A stretch of 64,000 nt of DNA from Sphagnum magellanicum (lineage: Eukaryota; Streptophyta; Sphagnopsida; Sphagnales; Sphagnaceae), in assembly GCA_021904315.1 (NCBI GenBank), contig CM038914.1, positions 9,920,001 through 9,984,000 of the forward strand, in the 5' to 3' direction. The notes beneath the pieces are model-generated. The model did no database searches. It had not been told where the DNA came from and saw only the letters and a list, made by a program, of their open reading frames with translations. Shown one piece after another: positions 24,476 through 64,000 of this stretch (position 1 is the stretch's first letter; the number at the start of each line of letters is the position of its first letter). A program made the translations under genes and the position numbers.

Positions 24476-27400
24476 TTTTTCAGCCTTAGCTCTTGTCTTT
24501 TTCCTTTTGTCCATTCTGTTTATCTTGTCTTGTTGTCTTCTTGGAATAAAGTTGGGTAGGTTTACATTATAAACCTCTTGCCTGAAGTGAGTTGTCTTTG
24601 GGAGTGAGTTCTCATCTCTAGGTAGCCCTTTGGGTGGCTTTGGGTGAACTGGCACCTACTCTGGTACCATGGTTAAACTCTGTTCTTCTTCTTCTTCTTT
24701 TTATGTTTTAAAAACATTTATAGATATCCCATTCCTAGACTAAACCAGGGTTCCTGTGTAGTCCAAATTTAAAATTAGAATTCAAATTAAAATCTATTTA
24801 TTAACTCTAGATTTGTTTGCAATCACCTACTATTTAAGGTGTGTTCACATTTGGTGTTAGGTACTTTAGTGTTGAGTCCCCTAACTAACACCATGCTAAC
24901 TAGTCATTTAGGACTTAAACCTACTTACCATGAAAATTTTATGTTAAGCTAACATTCACTTAACATTAAGTTACTGCCCATTTAACAATGGGTGCCACTT
25001 AGGATGCCACCTAGATTTTCATTTAACACTGACTTAAACGTCAAGTGTGAATGTATCATAATTCTGATACAGAATATTGGGTGAACATAGTAACCCTAAA
25101 CCCGTTTCAGCTTTGCAGGGTTTTAAGAGGAGGTTTAGGGTTTAGGCATACCCAACAGGACATGACAGGGGGATGTGGCCTTCCTTCTGTATGGACTTTT
25201 CCAAATTGATGTATTAGAGAGAGACTGTTTTGGCTGGCTCTTAGAATCTAGCTCAATGTCCGACATTAAAATTCAAGGCAGCAAAACACATCAACACACA
25301 CAGAAGAAGACACTAAATAAATAAATACACCCTCCCCACCCCGCCCCCCCCCCGCCGCCCCCAACCTCCTCCCCTAACAAGCTCTGGTCCGAGTGTCCCA
25401 TAACCACTCACCACCAGGACTAAATAAGAGTCTACACCACTTCTACCAACAATATGTACCTTAAATGAATGGTGACATTGGTGGTAGACATGAATATCCT
25501 CGTCAGTAGGCCGGTTCAGCACCAAGGTGCCTAATAATTATTTTATTTCTTTTTTTTTTGCCAGCTATGTTCAGCCATAATTTTTTTTACAAAATATATC
25601 ATTTGCCATTATACTAAATAATGAAGCTATTGTGCTTTGAGAGATTGTTTTACATTGTAAGGCACATATTTTTTCAGAATTTTTTTGGCAATTTCAGGAT
25701 TAATTAGTGCCTAACCAGCCTAGATACCACGGTGCATAAAACATTACTAACCCACATCTCTCCCCACCGCCCAAAATAAAAGATTTACAGAGAAATTAGC
25801 ACTCTCCATAATGTTTGTATATACCAATAAAAAGAGTCTCAATTGCAAAACAACAACAAAATTGAACTTTGAGATGCACCCACACAAGTAAATTAGTGGA
25901 ACTAATTTTCTAACAACAGGTATGCTGCCCTCATGCAAGCACATTTTGTGAAGGAAAATAAAGAATCTCTTGGAATTTTATTTTTTTATTTTTTTATTTT
26001 TTTTGAAATGGAGTCTTCAGAATTAATTTATTAATTATTCGACAGACATGTGTTGAAGCTGCCCCTGTACTACCACTACTATGGCATTGGATTTTGACCG
26101 TTTGCCAATAAGCCAAGCTTGTTCCGGATGAGATGCAGACTGCAGAAATTGGTCCCTATTATTAATTGAGAAGCCGTGTATTTTTGTCATCATTTTTTCT
26201 CTTCTTGTCTTCAAGCCCCACCTTGTGATTCTTGTTTATTCAGAGGTAAGGGGGGGGGGGGGGGGGGGTGGTAGTGAGGTGGGTCAGTTGGATGGATGGA
26301 TGTTCTGAGAATTCTGCTGATTTTTGCTTGTCCATTTGTGCACGGTCACTGACTGACAAAGTATTTTTTGTCAGGAGTGCAAAGCAAAAGGAAAAATTAA
26401 TAACATTCTTCCCAACCAACACAATTCACCCCCCAGGGCAAAACCCATGAACAATTTTATTTTTTTAAATATTCAAATTTTCCATGAATGAATGAACTAA
26501 TGGAACCATAGGGAGGGATAACTTAACGATTTTCTTCCTCTAAGTATTTAGGGGTTAGGGTTTGGGCTTAAACCCTAAACCCAATCCTCCCATCTCCAAA
26601 CCTGTATCCTTCTATTTCGTGCATGCGGGTTCGGGGAGTAGTTATGTCATTAACAACTGAAAAGGAATGAAATCAATCTGACTTGGGCAGGGATGCAGTT
26701 CAATTGTGCATTTCCGGCCTCGGTGTCTAGGCTGTAAATGCCCTGCTCCCAGGGCTTTGCCCTCCACATTCTACTTCGTCAGAACAGCTCTAGAAGGTCA
26801 TTAAAACATTTTGTAACTTATTATTATTGTACCCAAAACCTAACAATCAACAGTTTCTGTCGAAATAATTAAATTTTTCCACAACTAATCATTTCAACAG
26901 AAACAATTAATTATTCACACAATTATTATTTTTTAATGGTATAACTGAGCTTGGGATGCTTCTAGACTTGAGTACTTTGTGTTTTCCTTACCTTTCGATG
27001 TTTTCTTCTTGTAATAAAGTTTGTCAGGTTCATATATGGTTATCAAAAAGTTATTGGAAAATCACTATGGCTTATAAGGGACTGAATTAAGCAAACCCTT
27101 TTATTATTATTTCATTGGTTGAAGGATGAAAAAGTATAGTGATTTCATACTATTGCAGTCTTTCGCACAGACTTCCTCAATACTTTTTTGCATCCTTGTA
27201 TTTTAAGAATTTTCAACCTTATGGTGAAGGATGAGAGAAGTAGAATGATCCTGTACTATGGCTTGAACTTGCCACCTTGTAATTAGTTGTTGCACATGAT
27301 TCACTCCACTTCACAAACACACAATTCCCTATCTATTGGTAATAAACTAGTGTTCATGGATGTTGGTCTTTAGCTTGTGAACCCCCTAGCCTCGCCCCCT

Positions 27401-29352: not shown

Positions 29353-31080
29353 TGTTAGAACATAAAGTGAGGGTAACATGCCCTCACATGAGGTGGGAGG
29401 CTTATTGGAAACAAAAGGAGGCATGCTTAAAACTTTTTTAATGAATTTCCAATTTGGGAGTTGGGAGCCCAAAAATATTCAAAGGCAATTTGGGGAATCA
29501 AATTGTTTTCAAATTAGGATAAATTTTAGCTCGTTGAAATGATCTTTAAATGAGTTTCAAAATAGTGGGATCACATTATTAAAAAAACCCTATTTTGAAG
29601 GAATAATGATGTTCCAAAGATGCAAAATGTTATGTGTTCCAATTTTGGGAATTCATTTTGGGACTTTTGAAAATTTTAGCCATTTCAATTTTCAATATAA
29701 TTTCCACAAAAAAACCCATAATATACAATAGGAGAAGAAGTGATGCTTATTCCCAAGTGTGGGCCATGTAAATTTACAGTGAATTTGAAGCAAATTCATC
29801 ACCCAATGTTGGCTCAATTTGCACTAACCACTTGCCTTGTTTGGCTTGTGCAAGTGAATTCACCAAAAGGTGCCTATGAATGTCACCTCATCTTAGCTAT
29901 TCCCATCCTAAAACTCTTGCACAACTCTCTTGCCTTGGTGTATGGATTTATTTTTTTTAATTGATTTTTTTTCTTTCTATTGATCTCACCTTGTGAAGTT
30001 AACATGAATTCCTCAAGAAATAACATGATTAATTTCCAATTCTCCTATACTCACAAGTTTTCTTTAATTGAATGGAGTCTAACAATATTGTGTTTGGTGT
30101 GATCATGGAATATATGATTTTTAAAATAAATAAATTATACTTTAGTTCTTTATTGCAACCTAAACATTAGGTTTGTGACTAAATGTGGAGTGCAAGGGCA
30201 CATGAAGCCAAAAAAGTGTGTTCAAAAGTGAAACACATTCTCACAAGCGAGGGAAAATGCAAGAAATTGAACCCAATGACTTTCAAGTGCACTCTCATTT
30301 TGAAAGTTGCATTCATGTGAGAGTCCCAAAAATATTCAAAGCCTTGGTTAAAAAGGTAAACAAATGCAAATTTGGGCCCCAAGATATCGTTAGAATTTTT
30401 TTTAAATGTAGATGCCTAAAGTGCCCTCGCATTGTTCATTTAAATTTGAAATGCATGAGTTATGATCAAAAGAAAGGTCGGGAATCAAATTGGGACTCCC
30501 AACCACAAATCCCTTTAGAATAAGGGTCAAATCATCTCTATTTGGGGTGTGCAATACACCATTGGAAAATATGTCTTTGAAGACTATAAAATATTACCCT
30601 TGCATGCTTAATTTGAAAAAAATACGAGTGTCCACAATTTCAAGACAATAAGAGTACCAATTTTGGGACTCCCATTTAAGAGTTTCGTGAAAAAATGCCA
30701 TTTGGATGTAACCCCTGTAGAAAGTCACAAAATATACTACAGGAAGTGGAGTGGTGCCTCCTCCTAAAGGTTGTGGGTCATGTAAAGCTTATGCTTGAGG
30801 TTGTCCTATTAAATCTACCACATCATTTGCATTCAACTTACATTAACCGCCATCTCTCCTTGGTTGTGCAAGTTGATTTCATCTTGAGCTCTTGCTTGTG
30901 AATTTTCAACAGTCCCATTTTGGAGCTCCAACACGCCCTCCTACCCCAAAAATGTTATGAGTTAGGAGCGTGCCTCGACTTCTTTTTTTTCCACTATTTC
31001 ATTATAGGACCTACATTTGGGTCTCTTAAGGAGTTTAAAGGCACGTCATTCTCGCACCTCAATGTTGTTGGTTATATTTC
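29353..31080 (+). repeat. Dispersed repeat R1, two decayed copies in tandem
   Basis: 29353-29965 and 30176-31080 both align with the better preserved copy at 57633-58450. Shared landmarks are TGTTAGAA..GTGAGGG..CCCTCACA at the start, TGGGACTCCC, GCCATTTGGATGTA, the AAATATACTA/GAGTATACTA block, GTGGGTCATGTAAAG, TGGAGCTCCAACACGCCC and GCGTGCCTCGACT. Where the copies differ, the 57-kb copy often has C or G and these have T or A, as expected from loss of methylated cytosine. There is no coding capacity. It could be an LTR or a fragment of a larger element. Confidence 0.7.
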
Positions 31081-43452: not shown

Positions 43453-43905
43453 GTGAACAAGATCCTAGAATATTATGGGCAAGAAAAATATGATAGGCAC
43501 CTTGTAATAGGGCCCTTCTTTTGTGGTGAACAAGCACCTAGAATATTAATACGGGTAGCAAAAATACGATGGGCACCTTGTAATAGGGCCCTTTTTTCTT
43601 GGTGAACAAGCACCTCGAATATTAATACGGGTAGCAAAAATACGATGGGCACCTTGTAATAGGGCCCTTTTTTCTTGGTGAACAAGCACCTCGAATATTA
43701 ATACGGGTAGCAAAAATACGATGGGCACCTTGTAATAGGGCCCTTTTTTCTTGGTGAACAAGCACCTCGAATATTAATACGGGTAGCAAAAATATGATGG
43801 GCACCTTGTAGTAGAGTCCATTTTTCTTGGTGAACAAGCACCTAGAATATTATGGGCAGCAAAAGCATGACGGGCATCTTGTTAAAGAGCCCCTTTTTCA
43901 CGTAA
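43453..43905. repeat. 76-bp tandem repeat, six units
   Basis: Units start GTGAACAAG at 43453, 43526, 43602, 43678, 43754 and 43830 (spacing 73, then 76 four times). Each contains CCTCGAATATTAATACGGG, AAATACGATGGGCACCTTGT and AATAGGGCCCTTTTTTC. The middle units are nearly identical and the outer ones diverged. Because 76 is not a multiple of three, the repeat reads in shifting frames and gives overlapping minus-strand open frames of about 70 codons. I do not regard these as genes. Confidence 0.92.
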
Positions 43906-45445
43906 TAGGACCCCCCTAATTTTTTGACTTTATGGGTAACTCTAATCAAAAGGATCCCAACATCCCTGTAAATGTTCATACCATGTCCATTCTGTATATG
44001 AATGAAAAATGATGTGCATCCATCTGCTGAATAGGGTTATGGATGTAACTGATGTTGGTTATGTCCAGTCATCTGCTTTATGCGGGCTGTGATTGGAAAT
44101 AGCCTTGGGGCGTGCCAAGGCGTCTTGGGTATTTTCAATAATAATCAGCAGCCTCCTCTCATTGGTGATTGTTGTTCAACAATATGAATCACTCTTCCTC
44201 TGCATCATAACATGTTAGCTCTGTTGTCTCCCCTGCCAATAACCCAACAACAACTACCAGCAACCAGCTTTTATGCTCCTCCAAAACAAAAAAGAAAAAT
44301 AAGAGACTCAAGAGGGCTAGGTGGCAATTTACTGGAAGCTGAGTCATAAGTTACAACTGAAGGCATTCTAAAGGTGGCCAACTGGCAGCAGCTTCCATGC
44401 AAATTTTGCATGTAAAAAAGTCTTCCTATTAAGGAAGGTAGTTTGTTTGTTTGGTTTGCTGGCCTTGCCTACCAAGACAAGGATATTGTGTTTAGATTCG
44501 TTATTACATATAGTAAAGGACGTCGTGAAGCATCATTTCATCCATCTGTCCTGTCATCCATTCTTCCATCTGTCTGGTCATCCATCTGTCTCGTCATGGT
44601 CTGTTTACTCCGACGGGGCGAAGAAAGAGTGGAATACAGACGCGACATGATGGAGAATAATACATATTAGTGTTGTAAATTTTTATTATTATTATTATTT
44701 TTTTGGGGGTTTTTGGACTTAGGTACACTCATCCTGTCTCTTTCTCAACAACTGAAAGAGTTGGGTTGGGCTTTTTTTTTTTGGTTTAGAATACTGGAAA
44801 TTTTCAATGCTTTTTACATTGCCATAATTTTTTATTATAGTTCAATGGATGCCAGAGTGAGCAGCTGTTAAGCACACTTTTATTAGATATTGGCAATTTC
44901 AAGGTTTGCATTTGCCATAATAATAATGACAATGGATGTCAGTTGCCATTTTAGCACACAAACTTAATAGATACATTGGTAATTGCAATGATCAGATTGC
45001 CTAGAAAAACAATTTTGCCAATAATAATAACATGCTGTATGCCAAAGGTATTATTATGATGCATGTGAAAATTGGCTGCACCAGATACCCTAACCATTAT
45101 GAACAGGGAGGGGGTCTGGATACTGGAACTTATCAACAAAAACAAAGAAATAATTTTCAACAGATTGATACCTACTAAATAAGTAACTTACTACTTACTT
45201 ACAAGTTGAACAACGTTGGGGTATATTTGTCGTCTCTAGTCTATTCCCATGGTCAGCTGTATGTTGCTATCTCACGAGTCACAAGCAGTGCAACCATCAA
45301 GATTTTCAGCGGCCAAGGTGCCGATGGATACATGCGAAATGTCGTATATAAAGAGGTTTTGGAAATGTAGTTTGTAATTGTAAATTTTGTAATATGTACC
45401 ATCAAATACACACACACCTGTGCATTAGGCATGAGGTTCAAACTA
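43906..45445. other. Intergenic with an R2 fragment
   Basis: The segment 44430-44500 (GTAGTTTGTTTGTTTGG, GGCCTTGCCTACCAAGACAA) is a fragment of repeat R2. From 44535 to 44600 CATCCATCTGTC units repeat. A (TTA)n run lies at 44683-44700. No gene is seen. Confidence 0.45.
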
Positions 45446-46630: not shown

Positions 46631-49600
46631 TCATGTTGAGATCTCCCACACCATGCGGTCCCTGGCAGTGATCTTGGTACTATTGGAAAGCCCCCCCATG
46701 AGCCAGGGGTTTTAAGCCATCCACCCTAGCCTATTTTAAGCTATTCTCACTTAACTCATCCTCGATTATTTCAAACTATTGTACCCTTGGTGCATCAAGA
46801 TGATTTTTGCCACGTTTAAACTTGGCAGCTCAATATGCAATATAACTGGGGCACAGATGTCCAATCAGGAAGAGACACATCAGTGAGTTAGTCAGTAAGG
46901 CTTGTTACTATACAAAATATCTCTGCAGTGTATGTTAACTGGTATGAATATTCCCAGGGATATTGAAATCCTTTTTATTAGAGTTACCCATAAAGTCAAT
47001 AAATTAGGGGAGTTCCATTTCCCCCCCCCCAAAAAGTTTTGGCCAAACCATGGACGGGAACCCCCTAATTTGTGTCCAAGTACGGTTTGGACACAAGTTT
47101 CAGATGGAGGTCTTTGAAAGCATGTAAAATTTTGATCTGGGCCTGGAAAGAATCCTGAAAATTGATGTCCTACTTTAGGATAAAACACATGGTGAGATCA
47201 AATAATTGGGATAAGTTAATTGGTTGTCTATAAAAGTTGTGATTAAAACAAAAAAAAGCCTAGATGGCAATCTATCATGATATGCGAGCTATTGTTATGG
47301 CCATTAGGTATTTGGTGCAAAATATTTATTATTATTATTGTCATTTGTTGGTATAACCCAAAACAGAAGTTTAGTTTTGTTGTTTATCCGGAAAGAGTGG
47401 TTTTACAGTTTGATCATTTTCGGTTTGAGATTCCACAGCACACTGAGGAACAAGTAGCTAAAGACATGGTCGGTCGCTCATCATAGTGATTAAGGATCTT
47501 AATGTACCAAACTCCAATAATTTCCCAACTTGATTGTGCAACCAAGCAATCAATTTAATGAGAGAACCATACTTGAATTTTAGATGTATATCCATAAATA
47601 CTCATATTCATTCTCATACAAAGAGATATAATAATATTTACTACAATAGAGGTATCAATAAAGTCACCCTCTCTTTCACCCCCTATCCCCTCTTTGAGTG
47701 GTATCCACAAACTAATGAAATTTGATTACATCTGAGTATAAAATGCTGAAACTCCGCATTTTAATGCACAAGGTTCGAAAAAAATTATAATGTCCGTCCA
47801 GGTAGGAGCAGTGAAAATATATGTAGCAGCAGTGGAGGCGCTCAGGAAAAAAGGAAAGACAGGATGAAACTCAATTTTCCACCAAAATTGGTGGAAAAAC
47901 TAGTTTGGGTCCCAGTTATTTTGTTTTGTAAAATTTTCATTCCCAGTTACGCGTTTGATGCCCTATTATGCCGAAACTGCCCGTTCTCGCCCCTAATCGC
48001 CTGACTTTACGGCTAACTTTAATATAATAAATTATTAAGAAATTATGAAGTAAGTATTTAAATTAATTTATTCCTCATCTTTCCATACAGGCATATTTAA
48101 CTTTTTAGCAAAAAAAATTGAGACAAACAAGTCGCTTTAATTTTGTCTCAGATATCATCTCCATACAACAGTAAAATGCACTCCAAATGATCTCAATGTA
48201 TAATAAGAGTTGGCAACTGACATTATTAGAGACTTTCTCTCTAAGATTTACTCCTACAAATTTGATCTCTTTATTTATTTTGAAGGAGTTTTTAGCAAAT
48301 TATCCTTTGGATTGAAGGATTCATTGTATTATTGCTCTTCAAGTTGGAAGGACCTTGAAATTGTTTTGGTCATCAGATTATACCCGTGTGTACAGCAGAT
48401 ATCACTTTTCTCATCAGACCCCCACTGGATATCTGGGTGGTTCCTTGTTTCTTCCAAGGTATCCATCAAAGGTAACCATGGTAAAGTATCCGCTAGCTGA
48501 ACAAGCAGTTCCTGGAAAGAACAGGTAACCTGGTGTATCCGGGTCCTGCCTGAGAACTCACAGGTCTTTGACCAGGGTTTAGGTTAAGGTTATATTATGC
48601 AACCAATTAATAATTAAATAATTTTAAACGTATATAAATTTCCATTTTCATTTATTTAAAGATGGTAACCATGATCAAAGAACTGGTTCCACATGTCCAA
48701 CTATTGTGATATACAAAGGAACTAGCTAACAAATATTCAATGACCAAGTTTTCTTACAACCTTTTTGGTCAATTTCATTGCATAGTTATTTTGTCAATTT
48801 CCAAAGGATATGGCTAGTCAACATCAAATGTTGTAGTGCGTCCTCCAAGTGGGTGAAAACATAGCTAGCTTTCCATCACAAAATTAGGAAACTTTTGTGT
48901 GGCATTCTTTGTTCCATATCTTGCAAAACTAAGAACGAGGAAAACTTGTAATATTTTGGTATTAAAGTGTTTAGGTATTGTTGAATCCAATAGGGTAATG
49001 ATTGTGACAACCAGGCCTATAGCAAAGTTAGAGTTTGGCCTTGGCATAATGCCCTAATAAATAACTCCTTGGAAAGTTTTATATATTTTTTCTTTTGTTA
49101 CATTTAATATTGTGTGATTGATTTTGTAGGTTTAAAATTGCTTAATGGTAGGCAATCTTTAGAAAGTGGGGCCCATGTTCATAATAGACCTCCTACCTCA
49201 TGGGCACCAAATGTCCCATGTCCCCCCAACTTATCATGTTTCATCGAACCTCATAGTTCCCATCGCCTATTTGCCTTATCATGTGCCACTACATATCTAT
49301 TTTACACCTCATCCCCCACACAAACCACAAACCACCCACTAGTTACCCCTCCCATTTTAACAAATCACACATCACCTACTAGTTCTCCCTACTAACCCCC
49401 AACCTTTCATGTGAATGTGAGGTCCCAATTTTACATTTTCCCAAATTCGATCATGCACACATTTTCCCTCTCCCACTTTATTAGTCCTTACAGTTGGCCA
49501 TCATTGTACCCCACCAACCTACCCCCATTTGTTCAACACACTTTCAACCTCCACTTAAAATCTTGTGCCCCACCTATGGGCGCCAATTTATTAGTCGAAG

Positions 49601-50934
49601 GTTAACTTGTCATTAGTGTTCATGTTAAACATCCAATTCATCCAATCCAAACCCTTGTGATCATCCCAGTTCAATACCTTCCATTATTCCTACCCTGCTT
49701 ACATTAACTTAGACATGGGTTTCATCATTAGATGTCCTTGGGTCCTTTCATTTAGGCTTTTGTCGTGCTCAATTATACAATCACACCCCCACCACTTTAC
49801 AACATGATGTACAAATGGCATTTCCTTTTCCATTGGATAAGTTAATGCAAAACTTATTCCTCTTACTACCCCAATGGTGTTTCACTTTGCCCCTTCATGG
49901 TAGGGCGACATGTATAGGGAAACATATATTTGACTCAAATGTTTTTTAGTAAGTAATTGGGAAAACTTGCATGAAAAGTTTATTTTACAGGCCCAAGCTT
50001 TGGTGGCCAACTCAAATTCAATCCCTTTTCCCCAACATGATCTTCTAATTCACAAACATTTATTCCATAATTTAATTAGTGGGCATGTAAGGGAATACTC
50101 TTGGGCAATTCACAGTTTGGCATTATTTTTTCCTACGCCCATGTCCTCCGACACCACCTCAACTTTCACTGCAATACACCTTAAATCGAATGGTTACTTC
50201 CTACTTTTCCTTAAAACACAACGACACATCTTGGGTTTTACAATTGGTTAATAAAATGATTTTTTTTTCTATAATTATAATTACAAGTTCATGTTAATGA
50301 ATGTGTAGTTGTAAAAGACATGGTGCCACATGGCATTATCACTTTACAATTATAGTTGATATCACAACTTAATGGTTTTTACACAAATATCAAATTTTCA
50401 AAATTTTATTCTTAATGTATTTTTAATTATCCAAAATTAGGTAATAACAAAATTCCATTCATTCTTGCAACTTTTGGTGAATAATAACAACTTATGGTCG
50501 TATGATGTTGACGTTGCATGCCACATGCCAACGAAGTTAACTAATAATTGTAACACTTCATGATTTGTGACATTAACTTGACATCATGATTCATATCATT
50601 GATTTGATGAATTAATCTCATTTATTAGGTAGTTGAAAATATTGTTGTCCTTTGTGATTAATAACAACTATGTCTTCCACGTGATGATGACATGGCATGC
50701 CATTTGGCAATAAATTGTCACAAATTTTCATGGTAATCCATGATTTTTTGTGTGTCTTGAATTTATGGCACCAATATTTGTCATGGCATACCATTGTTTT
50801 TGTGTGCCATGAGGTTTTGAAGTCATGAATTCACATGCATGTGTATGTGTATTAAACAATCTATTGTTAATTGTAATTATGACTACAATATTAATAATCA
50901 TTTTGAAAAAAGTGACACATAACTCCTTGACTTT
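46631..50934. other. Intergenic, dispersed repeats, no gene supported
   Basis: The block at 47655-47765 (AAAGTCACCCTCTCTTTCAC..GGTATCCACAAA) repeats one at 19707. 49110-50250 holds C-rich, unrecognised sequence. Open frames of 60-96 codons (for example 48210-48500 and 49114-49395) show no domain and are not called. Confidence 0.45.
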
Positions 50935-51200
50935 TAACTATTTAACACATTAGTTTAGGTTAACATACTTATTAAGTTAACCTATGTATGTAGGCTACTT
51001 AATAAAAACCTACTTCGTAATATAAGTTACCTTGTAAGTTACTTAACTAAATATAATAAATTTACTACATCTAATATGTTTAAATATACCTAAAATAGGT
51101 TACCCTATTAATAAGTTAACCTAGGTAGGCTTGCCTAAATTCCTAGCTTTAGGGTTTTTGCCAAGTCAACCTAGGTAGGTAGGCTTGCCTAGGTTCTTAG
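50935..51200. repeat. GTTAACCTA/GTAGGC-type degenerate array
   Basis: AGTTAACCTATGTATGTAGG, AGTTAACCTAGGTAGGC and CAACCTAGGTAGGTAGGC recur with TTAAGT spacers. The type resembles the arrays at 290-790 and beside hAT copy 2, but no hAT fragment is visible here. Confidence 0.6.
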
Positions 51201-52550
51201 CTTTAAGTTCAAGGGTGTTATTTCGTGAACATGTGAACGTGAATGGTGAACACGTGCACATGCACAAGTGAACCCAAGGGATTTTTTTCAATAATATCTT
51301 GTTGACGTCAATGGAATATTATTTGACACATAAGATAAAATATTTGGTGATGTGGAAGAATATTTTGCCACATGTTGTCGATGAATGATTTTCTTGGATG
51401 TAAAAAAAATGATTTAAAAAAAATGGAAGAACTTTCAAATGAACATTGGCAACAAATCAAATTGCATTTTCCCCCTTCTACTACTAATTTTCTCAATCTA
51501 TATTTGAAATTGCATTTACTCCACCTTTACTACTTAGTTGAATTTTTTCTACCTCTACCATGTTTTTGCATTTATTCCATTCTTATTGCCTTATATGCCA
51601 TTGATTCACATGGACATTTGACAATATTGCTTTTGTTCAATTCAACATAAGTATATAAATCTACCAAGGTTGGTGCACCATGTGTTGAAGCAAAAAAAAG
51701 GTTTTTGGCACCTTTATTAAAAATCCTACCCCTTGGTTTCAGACATGTATTATGTGGCAAAATATTATCTATAAAAAAAAACATATTTTGCACTGCCATG
51801 TCATTTGTGGTTATTGTCATCCTAGCTGTTGTAATGGGAGATAAGTTAAACATAGATGTAACATGAACTTATCAACAAAACATAGGTGGTCAGATATAAT
51901 AATTATCTATATAATACAAAAAAACTTATAACAAAAGACATTTTAACCGTTCTAACAATATTATTGTGAAGTAGTTATTTTAAAAACATACTGAAAAATT
52001 GATGCATAGTTTGTAGATGTATACTACAAAAGGTTAAGTAATTAAGGGCATCACTATAAAAATGTAAAAAGCAAATGTGAGAAATTGACAAGTACACTAT
52101 TATGAATATTTATTTGCAACCTAGCAATGCCACTTTCCATAAAAAAATTAATTGTCATTGTCATTAAATGTAACAAGACTATGGCCATTGTTACACATGT
52201 TAAGATATTATGATAATGCAATGCAAACCACATTTTAATTATTAGAAAGGTGGGTATTTAATCTGCAAATTTTTTTGCATACATTATTAGTTGTTGTTTT
52301 ACGATGCCATGAGTTTTTGACACAATTTTTATGCTTTCAATTATTTTGCTCCATTTTGAAAGAAAAACAAACATGGCTTGTTGAACTCTTCAAGATTTAG
52401 ACTTGTACCCTATTATTGGGAAGAAATAAATGAAGTCCATTGATGTAAAATACCAAGTACAAGTTAGATATTGGGTAACAAGGAACCATTTATAGGACTA
52501 CAAAATTTATGCGACGATGATTTGTATGTTTGATGAAGACTTTCTGAACA
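51201..52550. other. AT-rich intergenic, weak coding-like patch
   Basis: Around 51372-51870 the plus strand is open for long stretches, including a hydrophobic segment (FCTAMSFVVIVILAVVMGDK) before a stop. There is no homology I recognise and no clear gene model. Confidence 0.25.
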
Positions 52551-52557
52551 ATTTATT

Positions 52558-53110
52558 ATGGCCTCCAAGAGACAATCCATGGCCAACACACTTAACAAAT
52601 TGGAATTACAGAATTTGACTCTTGAGGCAATCCGATTATCTATTGGGATTTGTGTTTCCAAATAAGTATTCTCGAAATCACCATCAATAAAAAGTGGCAA
52701 GATAACCAAAATGACACGAAGGAAAACGAGTATGAATCACCAACATTTGTTTATTGTAAGGAAATAGATGTAATGGTGCCACTGGTCAAAACAAGCCTTC
52801 AAACTCCACTAAGAATGCAAGGATCTTGGAATGACAACAACGCCAAAATGCTAGAAGCTATGGTAGAATCATCCAGGGGAATGGATGGAAAACCAAGTCC
52901 AAGCATTAAAGGTTCTCCACAATATTACCACAGATGAGGCCATTGACGTCAATGGCATCTTAGAACCATGAGAAAATATTAGAGAATTATAGGAATGTCA
53001 TTTGTAGGACCTTGAAATGAACCAACATTGTTGAAATGAAAGAGACGAACTGGTGCGAGATGTGTATTTATCTATGTGTGTTTAGTTTTTTTATCATGGA
53101 TGCTTGATGA
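52558..53110 (+). pseudogene. Unrecognised coding-like relic with stops
   Basis: A plus-strand reading beginning ATGGCCTCCAAGAGACAATC gives a helical segment (MASKRQSMANTLNKLELQNL and on to SIGICVSK). With frame changes it later gives VQALKVLHNITTDEAIDVNG and ENIREL.ECHL.DLEMNQHC. It looks like a decayed coiled-coil-type protein exon. I do not recognise the family. Confidence 0.3.
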
Positions 53111-54823
53111 GTAATGCATTTTAAGTTTTCTTTCAGGAGTTGACAAATGAAAATTATGTTTGCTTGAATAACTGCAACCAAAAGAGAACCATAGGAAAAT
53201 AATTTGTAAGAAAATCAAACAAACTAACAAATCCAATTAGAAATTGAATTTTTTTTTTCCCACTACAATCTTGGAAATTTGTATTTGGATTGAGCTAGAT
53301 GGAAATTATATTCATTGTATGAAACATACTTTAGATAAAACAGTTGACACCAAATTCCACATAGATATGTTGAACACCAACGCAAGTAAGATATAAAAGG
53401 AGAAATGGAATATGTATGGCCATTTAGAAATAAGACAATTGGGAAATGTCTTCAAATATAATGAAAATTACATTCATAAATGGAGAACACACTCCACACA
53501 AGATTGATTTAAACTACAAAAAATATATAAAATAAAATTCCATCTCCTAATGTGGTTATTCACTATTTAAATTTGAAATTCATTATCAAGTAGCCATAAA
53601 CTTTATTGGAGATTGTTACGTATTGTTATATATATTTTAGGTATTGTTTAGGTATTGTTAGGTATAATTCCCCATTGTAGGCCACAAAAATTGTTAGAAA
53701 TATTGACAATATGAATAATTATATACATTTGTGTGTTAGGTTGCTAAACTGATAAAATTGAAAGGATTGATTAGATCCCAACAAAACCATTTTGATATAA
53801 ACGACATTGGCATAATTTATTTATGAAATTCTCCAATTCTATAATTTGAAATATGTTTCCAAAAACATGTATATTGGAATTATGGATAGAGATATTCTCA
53901 AACATAAATGCAACATTGGAAAAAGGAAGAAAACATGTAATCTCTATTTGGTATTCATATAATGTGTACAAGCCAATATGGAATTTTAATTGTAAAGAAC
54001 CCAATTCTCTTACAAAATTTCACAAATGAAAATGATGGCTTGATTGAGCATTCCCAAGAATCATATAAGTTTGAAATTGTTTTCTATGGGGACAATTTAT
54101 GAAACTTTGGATTTTCCTTGATGTGTGTTTCAATCATTACAAGGGAGAGGTCATTTTTACAACCAAGATTATTTAATGTGGAAACCTATGCAAAAACAAA
54201 GAACACTTAGAGAACATGGAATTGCATGGGTAGAATATATAACTAATCCTAGAAGTAGGATTCAAGTTGGAAAGGGCATTCCAACAAATAGCATTATACT
54301 ATCAATCTTGTTTGACAAAGCTTTTTCCAACATTGTGGTATGTGCAAGCTTTGACACAAACAACTACAAGTGTTCTAGGAAGGTGACTTAAAATGAGCTT
54401 TGAATGAAAACATACATAAAAGGAAAATCCAAGGCAAAACATAATAACATCATTAGAGCTTTCCACCCAACCTCAGGATCACCTAACAGGTTCAAAAAAC
54501 CTAATGATCCACCCCCAAACTCAAAAAAAAAATTTAAACATCTTTTAATGCTTCATCATCAATGAAAGTTTTAACTCTTGAATGGTAACCTTGGGAAATA
54601 ATCCGTGAAGGAGGTGAAGCCAAAGACTCCAGAGCTAGGGCTTGAACCTCAGCATATGATAGTAATAGAAAATAAATGGTAGGATCCTAGAATATCTCAT
54701 CCTCCCTGAATGAAAAAAAACTCTTTGGTGGAGACCGCACTTTGCAAATAAAGAGAGAGGAAAATGTGAAGCGTATAACAAAAAGAATTGAAGGAATGCA
54801 TAATATTGATGCAAGTTGGCAAC
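53111..54823. other. Intergenic, no gene supported
   Basis: AT-rich sequence. The 88-codon plus frame at 54125-54391 has no recognisable motif. No tandem or inverted structure is evident. Confidence 0.35.
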
Positions 54824-57632
54824 TCACTCATAGTTAAGCAACCTCTTGGAATGTTTCTTGACAAGAGAATTAATATCGAAGTTATGAACATGCTTAGCGT
54901 TAAGCTTAGGCATGGCCACTTCAACGAGAAGTTCCAGCACCTGCATAAAAACCTCCATATCCAACTCCAAAGCAAGGATGTGGCACCCAAGGCTTTGGCA
55001 AGCCTTGACTATGTTGCCTACAAGGTGAAAGATGGTTAGACAAATTATTTGATGCAAAGATTGTGAATGAATTTTTTGAAAAGGAACACATACATGTGGA
55101 TGTAAATAAATCCACAACAAAAGATCCTATCTTGGAATAGACATCAATCAAGGCTTGAAGAGTAGAAGGATACATTTCCTTTACAGCCCTTAAGGGTTTG
55201 CCAGCCTTGGATATAGACATAGACGCCCCATCTGTCCAATTATACAACACATCCTCATTTCAAACATTAGTAAAATTGTTCAAAAATTCATCGAACGGTG
55301 AAGAAAAAAAATAATTTCCCAATGCCCAAGGAGCTTGCATAGGGGACCCTAGCAAGAAGAGTTGCACAATTGAGGAAAGTTTGCAATGTTAAAGAAATTT
55401 TTAAACTAAAGTTGAAAAGAAGAAAAATACAAATAAAGCTTAATGGATCAAAATGGAACCTTGAGAGATGGGTCCTTGATGCTCGTTAGTGGCAATGAAT
55501 TCACCATAGCCCATTTCATTTGTATCTAGAAGCCATATCTCTTTAGATAAGATTTGACCTCTTTCAAAACTTTGAGGTCATTCGGGTGAAATAACAAGAC
55601 AACCCCATTAAAGGCCAAGAAAATATGGGAAAAATCAAAGACACCAACAATGTACTCATCAACCTTTTTATTCCACGTAAAAACATCTACGTTCCTAGAC
55701 AAAAGAGGAACAAGGAGGTTTCTTGGAATGTTTGCAAAAACAAGTTGAACCTTGCCACTAGGATTCATCTACATAAAAAGAAGAAAAAAATTAGTGCATA
55801 TAGGAAAATTTATTATAACTATGTTGTATAGGGAAAGAGAATGTAATGTAAGCATACCTTGTGAATGGACTTAGAGATTGTTTCATACTACGGGGGCCAC
55901 GTCCGGGATGAGATCTTGGTTGCCACAATGGAATGCCAAGATAATCAGGGGACCATGTGGTGGAAACCAGGAGCCTTGTTGGAGGTAACAATAATCGGAC
56001 TTGGGTGGGATAAAGAAAACTAAAATGATTCCTTTCTAGTGTTCTGGACTTCACCAAGAGGAAGGGCCAGAAGAACATGTGGGGTAGTAGCTTTTTTTTT
56101 CCTCCTCACATCGTCGATTATCTACAAAGTTTGGCTCAAAGGAACCTCCATAAAGGTGTCAAAAGAGGGAGGTTTGATCACTTTCTCCTTTGACTTTCCC
56201 TTTCTTTTGGAGGCCATTTTCCACCTCCCACCCTCAACCTATGTTTCTACAAAACTTGTAAGAGTTTCCATGAAAGCGAGTTCAATATTCTCCCTCAAGG
56301 GAATCTCCAAGGTGGGGGTGTTGTCTTTCGGACAATCGAGGTACTAGCCACATTAGAGAAGATGGGGAGCAGGGCAATCCTTGAATAGGTCCTTCTAGAA
56401 CATAATGCAATCAACCTTAGGGTCACATTAAATGTCCAAGAGATTGGGGAGCTGATCAATGGCACCATGGAATAACAAGACATGATAGAAATACCTACAA
56501 CATAATAAACATCACCTTCATAAAGAAATCTAACAATGGCTACTAATTTTCCTACTCTTAATGTCGAGACAAGGGGAAGTTATGTGGTGATGCAAATGCA
56601 AATATGCCTCCAATAAACATTTAGAAATCAATTTGAAACAACTTGAGAATGGAATAAAGTTGTATAATTGGAATACATGTACAAAACCCATTTGACAATC
56701 TCCTTGCTTCGAGTTGTTGCTCCTAAGATTTCCTTCTCCAAATGCCATCCTTAGGCTTGAATTCCCAAAAAAAGAAAGTCTCCCATATCACCAACATTCA
56801 CTATTATATATATGAGGAAAAAAATATCATATTCAGTACCTTTCACAACCAAGGAAAAATCGGATATTGTTGCATTGAAAAACTTTATCGCTTCAATCTC
56901 AAGCTGCAACAACAAGAATGAAATAAGAAGGATCATCCTTGAGAAAAAATGGAAAAAAAAAAAAAAACATCCATAAATAGAATACCTAATGCCAAAAGGT
57001 TGCCTTATGTAACCATTTATTGAATTGGGAATTAGAAAACCCGAGCATGGGAATTTTTTTGGCCTCCTGTAAAATAACATATTCATTCCATATTTTGAGC
57101 CAAGATAACTTTGTTTGACCAAGACATAGGAGTATGCGAACATCTAGAGCTTTTGTGTTAACATCTCTAGCTCCAAGTTCATATCATAATGAACTTGTAT
57201 CTCCCTAAAGAAATTGCACCCAAAGAAGGATCACATACTGACAAGTGCTTACAAAAGGTCAAGTATTGATCCTTCCTCACCTACTCCATAGCTCTCTCCA
57301 TCTACTCCTAGAGCTTCAATGGTGAGTAGTCCTTAGCATTGGGGAATTTTTCATAATACAATTTGATTGCAATGTCCCCAATTGTAAAAATCTTTTGCTG
57401 TAAAAATTAAAAAAAACAAGGATGAACAAGTGGAAAACAGAGGAAAAGAAAAGGATTGAAGGGAGTTTGATATGTGTCATACTTTATACATATATTAAAA
57501 AAAAGCTTTTGAGGTCCAAGAGGAAGGAAGCCCGGGAGTCAAGGCAAAGGCATTGTAAGGTTGCGGGCAAAGAGGATGCCCGGGAATTAAGCCAAGAAGA
57601 AGCCCGAGAGTCACATCACATATTCCCGGGAA

Positions 57633-58450
57633 TGTTAGAAAGTGTGAGGGAGTGAACCCTCACACTCCTAAGGCAACTCCCACTTGGGGAGATGGAGTAC
57701 CGGTGGACTCCCGAAACTTCAGAGAACGATTGCAGGGGTCAAAACTCAATGGCTCATGGCGTTCTTTATATCATTAGAAAGCTCTTGGAGCGTAGATGTC
57801 TAAAATGGTCTCGCATGGCTCATTTGAACATCTGAAACACAAGTTATGGCGAAAAGAAGGGGCCGGGAGTCTGCCAGTTTGACTCCCGACCACTAAAAGT
57901 CGGGAATCGACCCGATTTACTTAGCTGCAAGGGGTGTGCCACACATCGAGAGCTACAACTTTGGTTTAGACCGCATTGCGATCCGAGGTCTGCTCGCAAA
58001 GTTATGGGGCTCCAAAGTCGCAGGAGTCCCAACTGGCGCGATTTCGGGACTCCCACTCGGGAGTCCCGGGAAAAATAGCCATTTGGATGTAGCCTCCGTG
58101 GAGAGCTACAGAGTATACTATAAGGGGGAAGGTGGTGGCTTCCCCCAAGTCCGGGCCGTGGTGAGTCTTGTGTGTTCGTGTTGCCCGTGGCTTGTCCTAG
58201 CACCAAGGGTGCTCCAACTTTTCACTAACCACTTTGTGTGGGTTGTGTGCAGGCTCGTGTGAGTGAGTGAAGCTTGTCAACTCTTCCTAGTCCCATCCTG
58301 GAGCTCCAACACGCCCCTCTACCCCTCAAAGTGTTGTGAGCTAGGGAGCATGCTCCGACTCCTCCCTCTTTCGCTGCTTTTTACTTGGGCTCACATTTGA
58401 GCCCTTTGAGGAGTTGGGAGTGCGTCATTTCTTGTAAACCTCCGCCAACA
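57633..58450 (+). repeat. Dispersed repeat R1, GC-rich well preserved copy
   Basis: It starts TGTTAGAAAGTGTGAGGG and ends CTCCGCCAACA, LTR-like TG..CA ends of about 818 bp, but the flanks do not show a clear target duplication. It is clearly richer in GC than its surroundings and keeps many CG and CCGGG sites (GGGAGTCCCGGG, GACTCCCGACC). The two other copies at 29353-31080 are AT-decayed. It lies in an intron of the methyltransferase-like relic, in the opposite orientation. A solo LTR is the leading alternative. Confidence 0.7.
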
Positions 58451-59454
58451 ACACCTCCTTGAACTACTCCAAGGGGATTTTGCCAATTGATTAAATTATG
58501 AATAATTCATGAACAAGGTTGAATTTTACATAGTCTAGCTCCACCAACCTGCAAAGATATACAGAGTAATGAGAACATAATCATTTAAATTTAACTAATG
58601 TAGGAAAAAAAAAAGGTTCAATAACATATTTGTTGAGCTTTATCATGGGAATGAAGAGCTCAATAAGCCCATGAGAGATGTCAAGGATAATGGAATCAAC
58701 AAAAAATGTGCCAGGAGGGTTCATCATCATGCAAACGATTAATGTAAAGCAACCAAGCTTACAACCTATGATTCTCATCCCACACAAAAAAATGCACCTA
58801 AAAAGGGAATTGAAGTTAGGATCAACAAGCAAGAAAGACTCAAATCTCTCATTCTTAGACATCTGATGCATACTCCAAGAAGACATGTGTTGTTCTTGGA
58901 ATTCTTCCTACCCCTTCCAATTGAGAGGTGAAACATAAAATTTTGTCCCCCTCTTAATAGCCAATCTGGAACACCTATTCCATCTTGAAGATATTGATTT
59001 TGAGTGCACGATGAACAACTGGCACAAATATCATTCGGCACAAAGGAATAACCATTTGGGCTTTGTTCCTCGACACCATCTTGTCTTGTTAAGGACTTCA
59101 AAGCTGTTGAACTTGGTTTGGCTCTAAACGACTTGAATAGTCCTATTGAAGGACAAGGAGTATGCATATGGCACCACTTGGGAAGTTTGTAAAAAAATTT
59201 GGAATGTTACAAATGCACAACAAAAAATATGAAAACAATCTAGAATTTTCTAAACAAAAGGCTACCCAATGCATCAAATACTTAAAGTGTTTCCATAATC
59301 GTTCTGATGGAGATATTTTTACAAGACATGTCTTGCAAAAGTAGACACAAGAAAGTTCAACATTATTTCTTTAAAAAAAAACTAAGCTTAAAAGGTCAAG
59401 TTGACAAAAACAAAAGGAGCTAAACATCCAAGGTCCTTTCTAGGCTTGTTGAGC

Positions 59455-60280
59455 TCCTTCCAAGCTTCTCTTGGTGCCAAAAAAAGCTCTACAAGAGTAA
59501 CAAAAAAAAAGCCAAGCTCTAGCTCCCCTCCGATTTCAGAGCCAAATTAGAGCTCAACTTTTTTTTGTGCTCCATCCAAGTTTTTTTCGGCACCAAGAAA
59601 AGCTCGAATGAAGAATAAATAACATCACAATTAGGCCCAATTCCAAATTTGTAGTTGGGCCCAAGTTTGGCATATTATGTTTGTTCCATTGAAGCTTCTC
59701 TTGGCACCGAGAGAAGCACAAGTGGAGAAAAAAGAAAAAAACCGAGCTTTAGTTCAACTTTGAAATGGGAGCCAAGCTAGAACATGACTTTCTTTTGTTC
59801 CATCCAAGCTTCTTTTAATGTCAATAAAAGATTGAATGGCAAAAACAAAAAAGGTCGAGCTTGGGCTTGACTCCCAATTTGGAGTCGGGCTCAAGCTCAA
59901 CACCTTTTTTTGCCCCATTTGAGCTTCTCTTGGCATTCGGAGGGGGCAAAACAAATGCCAAGCTTGAACTTGGCTTCGAATTGGGAATCGGGCCCAAGCT
60001 TAGCCTTTTTTCTTCCTCAATCCGAATTTCTTTTAGTGTCGAAAGAAACTTGAATTGAACAAAAAATTTGAGTCGACCTTTAATTCGGTTTTTTTTTTTT
60101 GTTACATCCGAGTTTCTCTTAGTGCCAAAAGAAACTCAATATTAACAAAACAATAAGGAGCTTGGCTCTTTTTTGCTACAATCAAACATCCTTCGGCACT
60201 GAAGGATTTTGTGCCTTTTTTTGCTACTACCAAGCTTCCTTTGGAACTAAGGGAAGTTCGATAATACCAATAAGAAAAAA
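59455..60280. repeat. About nine tandem units, most with a short hairpin
   Basis: Units of about 90-120 bases share CATCCAAGCTTCTCTTGGCA, GAGCTTGGGCTTGACTCC and GAATTTGGAGTCGGGC-type segments. Hairpins lie at 59463-59488, 59579-59603, 59694-59717, 59806-59833, 60027-60048, 60110-60137, 60188-60207 and 60235-60256; a degenerate one is at 59921. Arms include GCTTCTC/GAGAAGC, TTTCTTT/AAAGAAA, GAGTTTC/GAAACTC and ATCCTTC/GAAGGAT. The array falls between the duplicated exon and the 59.1-kb coding patch of the methyltransferase-like relic, so it is probably intronic. Confidence 0.8.
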
Positions 60281-60333
60281 CTTGGCTTGGGTTTTTTTCT
60301 TTTGAAAATGGAGTCGATTTTGGGCTGAGCTTC

Positions 60334-61305
60334 ATCTTTGGAGCTAGGCCAAAGCTCAGCTCTTACTTTTTCTTTTTTGTGGCCGATTTGCCATGACCCT
60401 AGAATCTAAGCTTGAGCTTCGATTTAAGCTCAAGTTTTCTTGGGCTCAAATCCAAGATTGAACTTGGATTTTTCTAAAGATAAAAACTTGAAAATAAAGA
60501 AAAGGGTTGAATTCCAAGTTTTTACCTTGAACTTGTTATTCTCTTCTTGAGATGTGTTGATATCTCCTATAGTCTCTGGGCCTTCTCCTTCTTCCTACAC
60601 AAAGAAATCCACAAGAATGACTTTAAAAGAATGAACATTTATATACATGTGCGAACTTAAGCCCTAATTTTCTACTTGGTGAAACCTTAAAAAAGCCACA
60701 TTATTTGTTTTTTGAAAGTTATATTTTACTAAACTCAAGAAATATGAACTAAAGTGGGGTTTCCAAACATTCATCTGACAATTTTTATCAAAGCAAGAGT
60801 TATTATACATTTAATGTTTTGACTATCTTTGGAGCCGGGCCCAAGCTTGGCTATTTTTTCTTTTTTGTGGACAATTTGCCATCGCCCTAGAATTTAAGCT
60901 CAAGTTTTGATTCAAGCTCAAGTTTTCTTGGGCTCAAATCCAAGATTGAACTCATATTTTTCTAAAGATAAAAACTTGAAAATAAAGAAAGGGTGGAATT
61001 CCAAGTTCTTACTTTGAACTTATTGTTCTCCTCTTGAGGTGTGTTGAGATCTCCTATGGTCTTTGTGCCCTCTCCTTCTTCCTACAGAAAGAAATCCACA
61101 AGAATGACTAAATGAGCACTCATATACATGTGTGGATTTAAGCCCTAATTCTCTACTTGGTGAAACCCTAAAAAAGGCACATTATTTGTTTTTAAAAAGT
61201 TATATTTTACTGAACTCGATAAATAAGAAATAAAGTGGGGTTTCCAAACATTCATTTGATGATTTTTATCAAAGCAAGAGTTTTTATACGTTTGATGTTT
61301 TGACT
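60334..61305 (-). repeat. 491-bp direct tandem duplication containing an exon
   Basis: 60334-60824 and 60825-61305 align throughout (ATCTTTGGAGC, CTCAAGTTTTCTTGGGCTCA, TCTAAAGATAAAAACTTGAA, GTGGGGTTTCCAAACATTCA). Each copy holds a 69-base exon on the minus strand (60594-60526 and 61081-61013) that encodes EEGEG..TIGD.NT.QEENNKFK in an open frame and keeps both an AG acceptor and a GT donor. Differences between the copies are modest, so the duplication is younger than the array next to it may be. Confidence 0.85.
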
Positions 61306-61832
61306 GATTATTTAAATAAAAATGAACTATGTAGGAAACTAAAGAACTAATTGAGACCTTGCCTGAAAAATTGAAAAAAAAATTTCAATTGCACTTTGAA
61401 TTCATCTAGTTGAATTGTACAAATACTTAATTGCTTGGAATTATCCAACCTTCACAAATGCAATCATAAATTGATGTATAAACATTTTTAGACTAATCTA
61501 TGAATAAACCTTAAACCCTAAATTGTGAACATAATTTATGCTAAGGAGAAGTTCTTTTTTTAAAACCTAACTATGCTAACACTTACCAAAGGATGAGGAC
61601 TTCTGTTTTATGTGCTGCTCCCATCATCCCCTAAGTCTTCGTCGTAGCCCGCTTCTACCTCCTTCTTTGATGACAATAATAGAACTTGTGAAATCTTTTC
61701 AATTAATGTACTTTCATTCACACTCCAATGCATTTGAGCCTATAAAACAATTTTTTTTACTTCTAATGATTCCTCCCTCCCTTGAGAGAAATCAAGTTCC
61801 TTTCCTCTTCTAGATACTTCTATCTTTTTCAT

Positions 61833-64000
61833 AGTTGCATAAAAAATGTATTAAAAAATATGAAAGTTGCTAAAATACAACACATCACATCTCCCTTCCA
61901 CTCTAAGAAAAAATACACTCTTGTCTAGGAATTCATAAGGTGTGTCAACTTCCTATTTTCTTCAACACCATTGTTAACTTTTGATGTCTTGTTTTGATAT
62001 GAGTCCACTTGTTACCGCACCTTCTTCTACTCCTATGTTGGGCTATGGTCGAAAGCTTGCTAGCCCTTTGTAATTGAAAAATGTTTTATTTACATCCAGT
62101 CTATGTTTTTTATACTTTCTTTTTTAAAGGATGTTGTCATTTCCCGATTTTTCTTACATCCATGTTGTACCCATGACCATTCAACTAATGTGTACTTAAC
62201 GATTATTAATTCAAATTGGTTTTCTATGTGTTAGGACAACTCATTATTCGATGTGTTTGTTGGGTCTAATGCCAATCATTAAATGGATTATGTAATAATT
62301 ATTGACAATTTGCTACCATCCTTATTTATAACAATTTTTGTCCCCTGCTATAATTTTGACAATTCAGTATTATTTTGCCACCATTTAGTTACAATACAGA
62401 TGTTTGGTAATGGATGCTTTGGACAATAGAGAAGAAATTCCAAGAATTAATCAACTACACTTCCATCTAACTCATCAAGATAACATTTGTGAAGAATTAC
62501 TACTTGTCAAATTACACTTTTAAGATGATCAAGTGTTTTTAACTACTAATAGAAGAAATGTTTTTCTAAAAATGTTAAATGAATTTCTATACATACCTTC
62601 ATTTTATTTGTTTCATGTTAATAGTAACCCCCATAAATTTACAAACATACTCTTAAGTATTTACAAAGTCCTGATTGGTCATAATCAATCGTTCTTGTTT
62701 TTTTCTTGTATTTATCATTGTAATAAATGTCTCTAGCAACATCTTTTATCCATATGCTATTATTTCATTTTTCTCTTGCTATAAATATCAGTGCAACTCA
62801 CCCATCTACCAAAAAATATTTTGTTTCCTTCTTAAATCAAAGGTAATATTTAATAATTTCCTTTTTATATAACCATGGATTTGAAAATTGGAATGCAATT
62901 GTACGATGGATACATATTGCAAAATATTGATATTTTCACATTTAACATAAATTGAATCCTTCATGGGCTTACCCTTCTTTCTTGGCCAAATCATTCTACA
63001 TCATGCCAAGGTTTGTTGTTTTTATCTCTTCACATTAAGAGAAAAAACCATTTTCTAACCAACTAGTTTTCAACTGCATGTCAAGCTCAACTTGCCTTTG
63101 ACTACATAATTATATTTATTTCAACAAATTCCATGTGGCCCACTTTACACCTCAATTTAATTGACTTTTCGACTAAGTTGGTAAGTGTATGACGTTGACC
63201 ATTATTGCCAATTGGCCATTGATTTTTACTTTTAATTAATAAATTCACAATTAAGCTATCGTGGAAAGATCTACTTTCAAAATTTGTCGAGCTCTATCAT
63301 GTCAATTGCTTCACTGTCTTGGTTAACCTTGTTTATGGATGGATGAATGTTGGAAAATTTGATGGATAAAATAATGTCTATTTTTTCCACTATAATTCAA
63401 CTTTGATTTGATTTTAGGTTCAACTTAATTGTGGCTTTTTTACAAGTTTGTTGTGACTAATTTCCAACTTTGGTGATTTCAAGACCCTTTAATCTTGAAA
63501 TTAATACCTTTCATTACACTACACCTTGCCACTAAAAACCTTAAGTTTGTTGGAAAATTTTATGTTTCATGGTGTCCAAATGTGATAAAACATCAAATGT
63601 GGGAGAACAAAACATTTTTGTCTAAAGTCATTGGGCATGGTATTGAAGTGATTAAAAAATGTGGAACATTGAGTTGACATGTCCTTGCTTATTGAAACAA
63701 ACGTCTATGTCCTAGAATTTCTTCTTTGGGATTGTTTTTCAAGGTTAAATTGCCTTGTTTCATTGAGTAATAATGACTCCTCCCTAAAAAGGAATATTGC
63801 ACCAACGTTACTAGGGGTGGTTGGTGCATTTGGCATTGCCCTTCATCCATCCAACACACTTCCATACTCATTTGTGCTAGTGTACTCCCCATAGGTATTT
63901 AGGAATGGGCACTTGCTCCATGGCTCCTTATGCAATATAACCTTCCACCATGGGTTGGAAAAATCATCAAAATAGAAAACTTGTTGGACTTGTGATGGGA
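61833..64000. other. Intergenic to window end, no gene supported
   Basis: AT-rich sequence upstream of the methyltransferase-like relic, where its promoter would lie. Open frames of 60-71 codons here show no domain. No repeat with a second copy in the window was found. Confidence 0.35.

Follow-up and report, generated by a model that had tools for sequence, protein, structure and literature searches.

The sequence examined here raises a simple question: why does the genome of the peat moss Sphagnum magellanicum carry a broken, intron-split gene that reads like a bacterial DNA amino-methyltransferase, and what could such a gene have served? The window, as we call the whole stretch of 64,000 nucleotides under analysis, lies on contig 8 of an assembly of 438,994,042 bases in 31 contigs, all of which was searched. 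An earlier note, made from the letters alone, had recognised in it the relic of a permuted N4/N6 amino-methyltransferase with plant-type introns, too decayed to be functional and possibly spread as a multicopy family.

The remains of a spliced gene

The region singled out by the earlier note holds the 3' half of a spliced plant gene, in a copy that is dead. It encodes an amino-methyltransferase-like domain that is circularly permuted (IV ... I) and decayed. Its coding parts, all on the minus strand, are as follows:

56980..57448, minus strand: further upstream coding exons, borders approximate, with amino acid similarity to the distant copies L014, L025, L026 and L027 (L numbers denote stretches fetched from the genome)
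56254..56494, minus strand: upstream coding exon starting after an AG acceptor at 56495, with amino acid similarity to L010, L012, L014, L017, L023, L024 and L025
55460..55768, minus strand: exon A, with a motif IV-like ANIPRN, a GVVLLFH strand, a helix and a KWAMVNSLPLT strand; it reads ...KVQLVFANIPRNLLVP...GVVLLFHPNDLKVLKEVKSYLKRYGF, then an in-frame TAG, then IQMKWAMVNSLPLT...
55094..55348, minus strand: exon B, with an HPTQKP-like helix (GKPLRAVKEMYPSTLQALIDVYSK), the start of motif I (VVDLFTST) and one TGA; it reads ...GKPLRAVKEMYPSTLQALIDVYSKIGSFVVDLFTST and is shifted in phase by one base relative to the preceding exon A
54828..55017, minus strand: exon C, with the remainder of motif I and the acidic strand LALELD (NIVKACQSLGCHILALELDMEVF); it reads CNIVKACQSLGCHILALELDMEVF...
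54534..54705, minus strand: exon D, read from the sequence, a C-terminal tail ending ...SRVKTFIDDEALKDV with one in-frame TAG

Exons A, B and C have plant-type GT/AG borders, and these three 3' exons stand with the order and the strand that the earlier note had given them. The end that it had set for the gene, 54824, has to be revised: this is a TGA reached only if the splice donor GA/GTGAGT at the end of exon C is ignored. If that donor is used, exon D comes next, the tail of which is resembled by the database protein P0077 and by the distant copies L014 and L027. The upstream edge, placed at 56494, was well chosen, since it directly follows the AG acceptor in a stretch that is conserved between subfamilies. 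The long upstream coding exons are also borne out, both by their similarity to distant copies and by the alignment and profile described below for the upstream domain. This copy is dead, with in-frame stops in exons A, B and D and the one-base phase shift.

Relationship to bacterial and phage amino-methyltransferases

The ancestry first read is well supported by sequence comparison: the gene descends from a beta-type amino-methyltransferase of bacteria or phages. PHROG 6952 (DNA methyltransferase) matched the window copy at E 4e-6, in an alignment that extends across the exon B/C junction, and matched five of ten copies; PHROG 3008 matched the window copy at E 0.001, and two of the ten. We then relied on a family profile of 120 rows, many of them fragments (all 28 rows from the genome, plus 92 stretches matched in 84 database proteins), of which hhalign retained 102. 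Against eight phage N6/N4 methylases this profile scored 65.5 (probability 95.8%) over 194 collinear columns, so that motif IV precedes motif I in a circularly permuted order maintained across the domain. Against an enlarged set of 13 phage methylases the score was 46.4 (probability 83.5), to be compared with at most 15.2 for 60 column-shuffled versions of the profile and 11.8 for its reversal. A profile restricted to the distant subfamilies (45 of the 120 rows, the window subfamily being excluded) scored 48.3 (probability 88.5) against the eight methylases and 35.0 (probability 35.1) against the 13, where 30 shuffles each gave at most 13.5 and 14.4, respectively.

Could the resemblance be due to chance, the gene having another fold altogether? 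The Pfam comparison would leave room for this: the N6_N4_Mtase profile (PF01555) aligned in the correct register and yet reached only 12.3 bits (E 0.16), under its cut-off of 26.7, and found one of ten copies. DUF7411 did slightly better on the window copy (E 0.018, also under cut-off, two of ten copies) and PRK14561 matched two of the ten (best E 0.002); all matches to Pfam and NCBIfam for the window copy and nine others were sub-threshold. PDB sequence searches gave no relevant match, and neither Foldseek nor VIA-align found a meaningful match for the structures that AlphaFold predicted for the upstream domain and for exon A, models that are too poor to serve as evidence (mean pLDDT 59 and 55, from alignments of 45 rows, or 45 of 59 proteins, and 50 rows, or 50 of 84, respectively). 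However, the PHROG 6952 match and a collinear profile match that far exceeds its shuffles already disfavour a chance resemblance, which we consider very improbable.

Probable loss of the catalytic motif

The moss family shares with the phage and bacterial beta-type enzymes (PF01555; PHROG 6952 and 3008) the order of motif IV before motif I, the GG-strand, the helix before motif I, a D-x-F strand and an acidic E-x-D strand. It differs from them in falling below the Pfam cut-off, in being split by introns, in being joined to an upstream domain and in its catalytic motif: motif IV could be read in 71 family members, and DPP[YFW] is present in none of them. At position 1 of this motif we counted N in 28, D in 21 and E in 12 members. 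Position 2 is V in 44 members and I in 18, and never P; at position 3, P (34) and L (26) predominate. Since the change from P to V takes two base changes, copies decaying at random and separately are unlikely to have produced this pattern. The family ancestor was probably already devoid of DPPY, and the catalytic motif was probably lost family-wide.

Motif I also departs from the known enzymes in the window copy, where it reads DLFTSTCN and does not match FxGxG, the first glycine being replaced; family counts around motif I are blurred by several database rows that read through the intron. The acidic strand LALELD is better preserved, with its E kept in 29 of 34 and its D in 26 of 33 members. 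A motif IV with no P at position 2, combined with a conserved acidic strand, suggests that the fold was kept while amino-methyl transfer to N4-cytosine or N6-adenine was probably lost. We thus favour, with reasonable confidence, a pseudo-methyltransferase that would have retained the fold, and perhaps the binding of S-adenosylmethionine or DNA, without transferring an amino-directed methyl group.

The suggestion that intact, active relatives may exist elsewhere in the genome found no backing among these 71 members. A whole-genome six-frame search with PF01555 likewise returned nothing over its cut-off, which is weak evidence given that it proceeds exon by exon and missed the methylase-like family itself. 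As almost every copy that was read is dead, a rare functional master gene with full motifs is possible. The sole weak PF01555 match in the genome (E 0.46; L055, contig 12, 5684355-5684477) has DPPYG and YDPFVGTGS. By our reading this gene looks like the host tRNA methyltransferase Trm11, and L055 was rejected as a relative of the family.

A large dispersed unit

The expectation that the gene had spread in many copies was confirmed. Exon A gave 150 scored matches genome-wide, out of 233 candidates; for the upstream domain there were 150 out of 420. Both sets are scattered over many contigs; these are lower bounds, and they count matches and not copies, as some pairs of rows are pieces of a single copy. 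Nine of the 150 listed upstream-domain rows are stop-free. The stops in decayed copies across the genome are often TAG or TGA, which CAG, CGA or TGG would yield by C-to-T change where DNA is methylated.

What the near copies have in common is far larger than the gene. Aligned to the window by blastn, they show about 69-82% identity across exons, introns and flanks, over the whole or part of the following feature:

51301..63035, no strand assigned: dispersed repeat unit (minimum length), delimited by blastn against fetched copies, introns and flanks included

At least about 11.7 kb are therefore common to near copies, some on other chromosomes, and the shared introns and flanks indicate that the gene was carried along when a large dispersed unit spread. 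A copy on contig 9 (L044, L038 and L046) spans 51301-63035 in pieces. The upstream edge near 63035 is common to the window and L044, and downstream the homology with L046 and L047 reaches at least 51301; a cut-off of the window copy at 51598 was considered and rejected, as both of these extend beyond it. Downstream, three copies stop together at ...CAATCCCC(C)A. A longer end, distinct from this one and possibly related to it, is found in the window, L038/L046 and L039/L047. Neither terminal inverted repeats, nor long terminal repeats, nor a firm target-site duplication could be established for the unit. The only candidate pair of flanks, GCATT/GCATG, matches at four of five bases, and the downstream end sequence has no second occurrence in the window or in 26 loci. 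A six-frame Pfam search of the decayed window unit gave no hit of any kind at E 0.1, be it to a transposase, reverse transcriptase, RNase H or integrase, and Rfam no match at gathering scores in 50000-64000.

Two companions of the methylase-like domain

Two further coding regions belong to the unit:

58428..59168, minus strand: decayed exon(s) of a conserved upstream domain, from tblastn with 58 relatives and a 17-row alignment that includes the window
52221..52943, plus strand: second gene, ORF2, decayed and convergent with the methylase-like gene, from tblastn with 120 relatives

Neither the upstream domain nor ORF2 matches a known family. The upstream domain has the family consensus ...FYVSPLNWKGEEEF...VWDGNHRLQAWLPYI...VDSIVLDTSHGLVELLIAMTDLN, and its profile picked up 59 proteins of the database with an E value of 1 or better, stop-free exon reads among them. 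One scan of viral contigs revealed no relative. Its motif DGNHRLQA recalls ParB-like domains (ParB/Srx), and in several of the phage proteins fetched here ParB-like domains accompany methylases. This assignment, suggested by eye, is not significant: the domain aligns with ParB at DGxHR, and its scores (15.9 and 16.4) fall within those of shuffles (top 16.0 and 16.7). Pfam and PHROGs gave no ParB match for it.

For ORF2, 233 proteins of the database reach an E value of 1 or better, and the 120 matches listed include none with a precomputed Pfam domain. Among 27 loci, 12 have ORF2 downstream of the methylase-like gene and on the opposite strand (counting L021, whose ORF2 falls in the adjoining stretch L023), L017 being one more, weak case; it was not seen in the other 14, some of which are represented by stretches that are too short. 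The same arrangement is retained in the distant subfamilies L009, L010, L015, L019 and L024.

Selected sources and dead copies

Differences between copies were counted by codon position (given as position 1/2/3), within the near subfamily (nine copies) and between subfamilies (4, 4 and 1 copies). Within the near subfamily they amount to 0.191/0.130/0.251 for exon A, 0.209/0.179/0.218 for exon B and 0.175/0.156/0.219 for exon C, and identity is about 77-86% in exons, 72-93% in introns and 84-89% in the 3' flank. The three codon positions thus differ to a nearly equal degree in exons B and C, and the exons do not exceed the introns or the 3' flank in similarity. Decay in this subfamily is close to neutral, exon A retaining a mild third-position excess, so that it is not strictly neutral throughout. 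Between subfamilies the values are 0.345/0.195/0.526 for exon A, 0.244/0.218/0.519 for exon B and 0.295/0.182/0.581 for exon C. Third positions thus change most, which indicates that the source genes were once under selection at the protein level.

In ORF2, too, third positions differ in excess when subfamilies are compared, in most cases. The window differs from L019 by 0.23/0.17/0.40, versus 0.18/0.13/0.17 from the near copy L028. The excess is missing between L019 and L009 (0.18/0.21/0.21) and between L019 and L024 (0.27/0.28/0.28), which counts against recent selection there. Selected sources with dead copies are a typical picture for mobile elements, and fit a gene family rich in pseudogenes as well.

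Origin of the unit

We consider it probable that the window holds a dead spliced gene, derived from an amino-methyltransferase, within a mobile unit of about 12 kb that was dispersed through the moss genome. That its product was a pseudo-enzyme is a less secure step, and the part that it played for the element less secure again. The closest contender is that a normal family of host genes grew by ectopic or segmental duplication and left many pseudogenes, the shared 12 kb being a duplicated block. A spliced gene whose sources were once under selection is what such a family would provide, and neither a transposase nor clear terminal repeats betray an element in the window unit; moreover, ORF2 was not seen in 14 of the 27 loci. 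However, duplication of host blocks sits poorly with 150 scored matches for each of two exons over many contigs, with similar edges in several unlinked copies and with an ORF2 that keeps its arrangement in distant subfamilies. We therefore regard this explanation as rather unlikely.

Less likely still is a giant retrotransposon of the LTR or DIRS type into which a methyltransferase had been captured, its reverse transcriptase part having decayed or lying outside the shared unit. The common end of three copies in ...CAATCCCC(C)A and an upstream edge that may start with TG are like retrotransposon termini, and retrotransposons of charophyte algae and dinoflagellates are known to have captured methyltransferases (PMC5890265). 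Yet neither the rest of the window nor the 26 loci repeat the downstream end, the six frames of the decayed unit hold no reverse transcriptase, RNase H or integrase at E 0.1, and the introns were kept, although retrotransposition through the gene's own mRNA would remove them (genes on the opposite strand could escape this). As to a large DNA virus that became endogenous and left its methyltransferase behind, the many decayed copies would suit it, and large viruses of algae do encode DNA methyltransferases. Against this, the genes are spliced, the upstream domain has no relative in the viral contigs of our one scan, and no viral Pfam domain appears in the window unit at E 0.1; we hold a viral relic to be extremely unlikely.

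Returning to the mobile unit that we favour, we suggest that it is a mobile element, or a former one, and that it would have been moved by an unrecognised gene or by another element. The role of the protein most likely lay in serving this spreading unit. How it did so is more speculative: our leading guess, a tentative one, is interference with silencing by a pseudo-methylase that binds DNA or S-adenosylmethionine, against which a host role and a part in transposition have to be set. On this guess, and it would be a bold one, the protein would have bound DNA and shielded the element from host silencing, or steered that silencing. A more inclusive proposal, somewhat less doubtful and still short of an even chance, would be a novel plant mobile element of about 12 kb, devoid of a known transposase or reverse transcriptase, in which a possibly ParB-like domain fused to a catalytically silent, bacterial-type amino-methyltransferase, together with the convergent protein, moves the element or shields it from host DNA methylation.

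Comparison with known systems

In the Dam type of adenine methyltransferase, motif I comes before motif IV. Enzymes of this type have been captured by DIRS retrotransposons, as PMC5890265 mentions, and provide another example of a bacterial-type amino-methyltransferase on a eukaryotic repeat; theirs adjoin a reverse transcriptase and a tyrosine recombinase, neither of which was seen in the moss unit. The same paper reports the capture of C5 methyltransferases by dinoflagellate and charophyte retrotransposons (SymbioLINE-Dnmt, SymbioDIRS-Dnmt3 and KnitGypsy-Dnmt3), with purifying selection on KnitGypsy-Dnmt3 (PMC5890265). These resemble the moss unit in that a repeat has amplified a DNA methyltransferase gene into many copies, whereas they are C5 enzymes accompanied by a reverse transcriptase and the moss unit has the amino-group type, with no reverse transcriptase seen.

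The bdelloid N4CMT and the Marchantia 4mC methyltransferase are low-copy genes. Both are bacterial-type N4 enzymes recruited by a eukaryote, as described in PMC8885841. Compared by description only, they are active, in contrast with the moss family with its very many copies, missing catalytic motif and extra domains. A looser parallel may be drawn with VANDAL transposons, which carry the VANC anti-silencing proteins; VANC is not known to be methyltransferase-like, and the likeness would be one of concept, that of an element-borne DNA-binding protein countering silencing.

No published report of this family was found in our searches of the open part of PubMed Central, including a search for N6_N4_Mtase with Sphagnum. 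If the present reading holds, a relative of permuted N4/N6-type methylases, amplified in a moss and deprived of its catalytic motif family-wide, would add an enzyme class beyond C5 and Dam and point to a role as a pseudo-enzyme. It would follow that N4/N6 methylase matches in peat moss or in peat metagenomes may be dead repeats and not evidence of 4mC or 6mA writing. The upstream-domain protein and ORF2 may, in turn, hold an unrecognised mobility gene.

Other repeats in the window

The unit has itself been invaded by a smaller repeat:

57522..58425, no strand assigned: nested GC-rich repeat of about 0.9 kb, inserted in the unit and absent there in L021, L037 and L040 (blastn breakpoints)

A related copy of this repeat lies at 30150-31050 in the window, and ten further fetched loci contain related sequence. 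A tandem duplication of about 488 bases is present in the unit's upstream part, at 60364-61305, and self-similar repeats are found around 59400-60300. Elsewhere in the window, an array of 82-base tandem repeats occupies 23693-24566, its central copies being 94-98% alike, and an array of 76-base repeats, several copies of which end in runs of T, occupies 43453-43898. The latter adjoins one arm (43904-43983) of an 80-base inverted-repeat pair, the other arm of which lies at 46940-47019.
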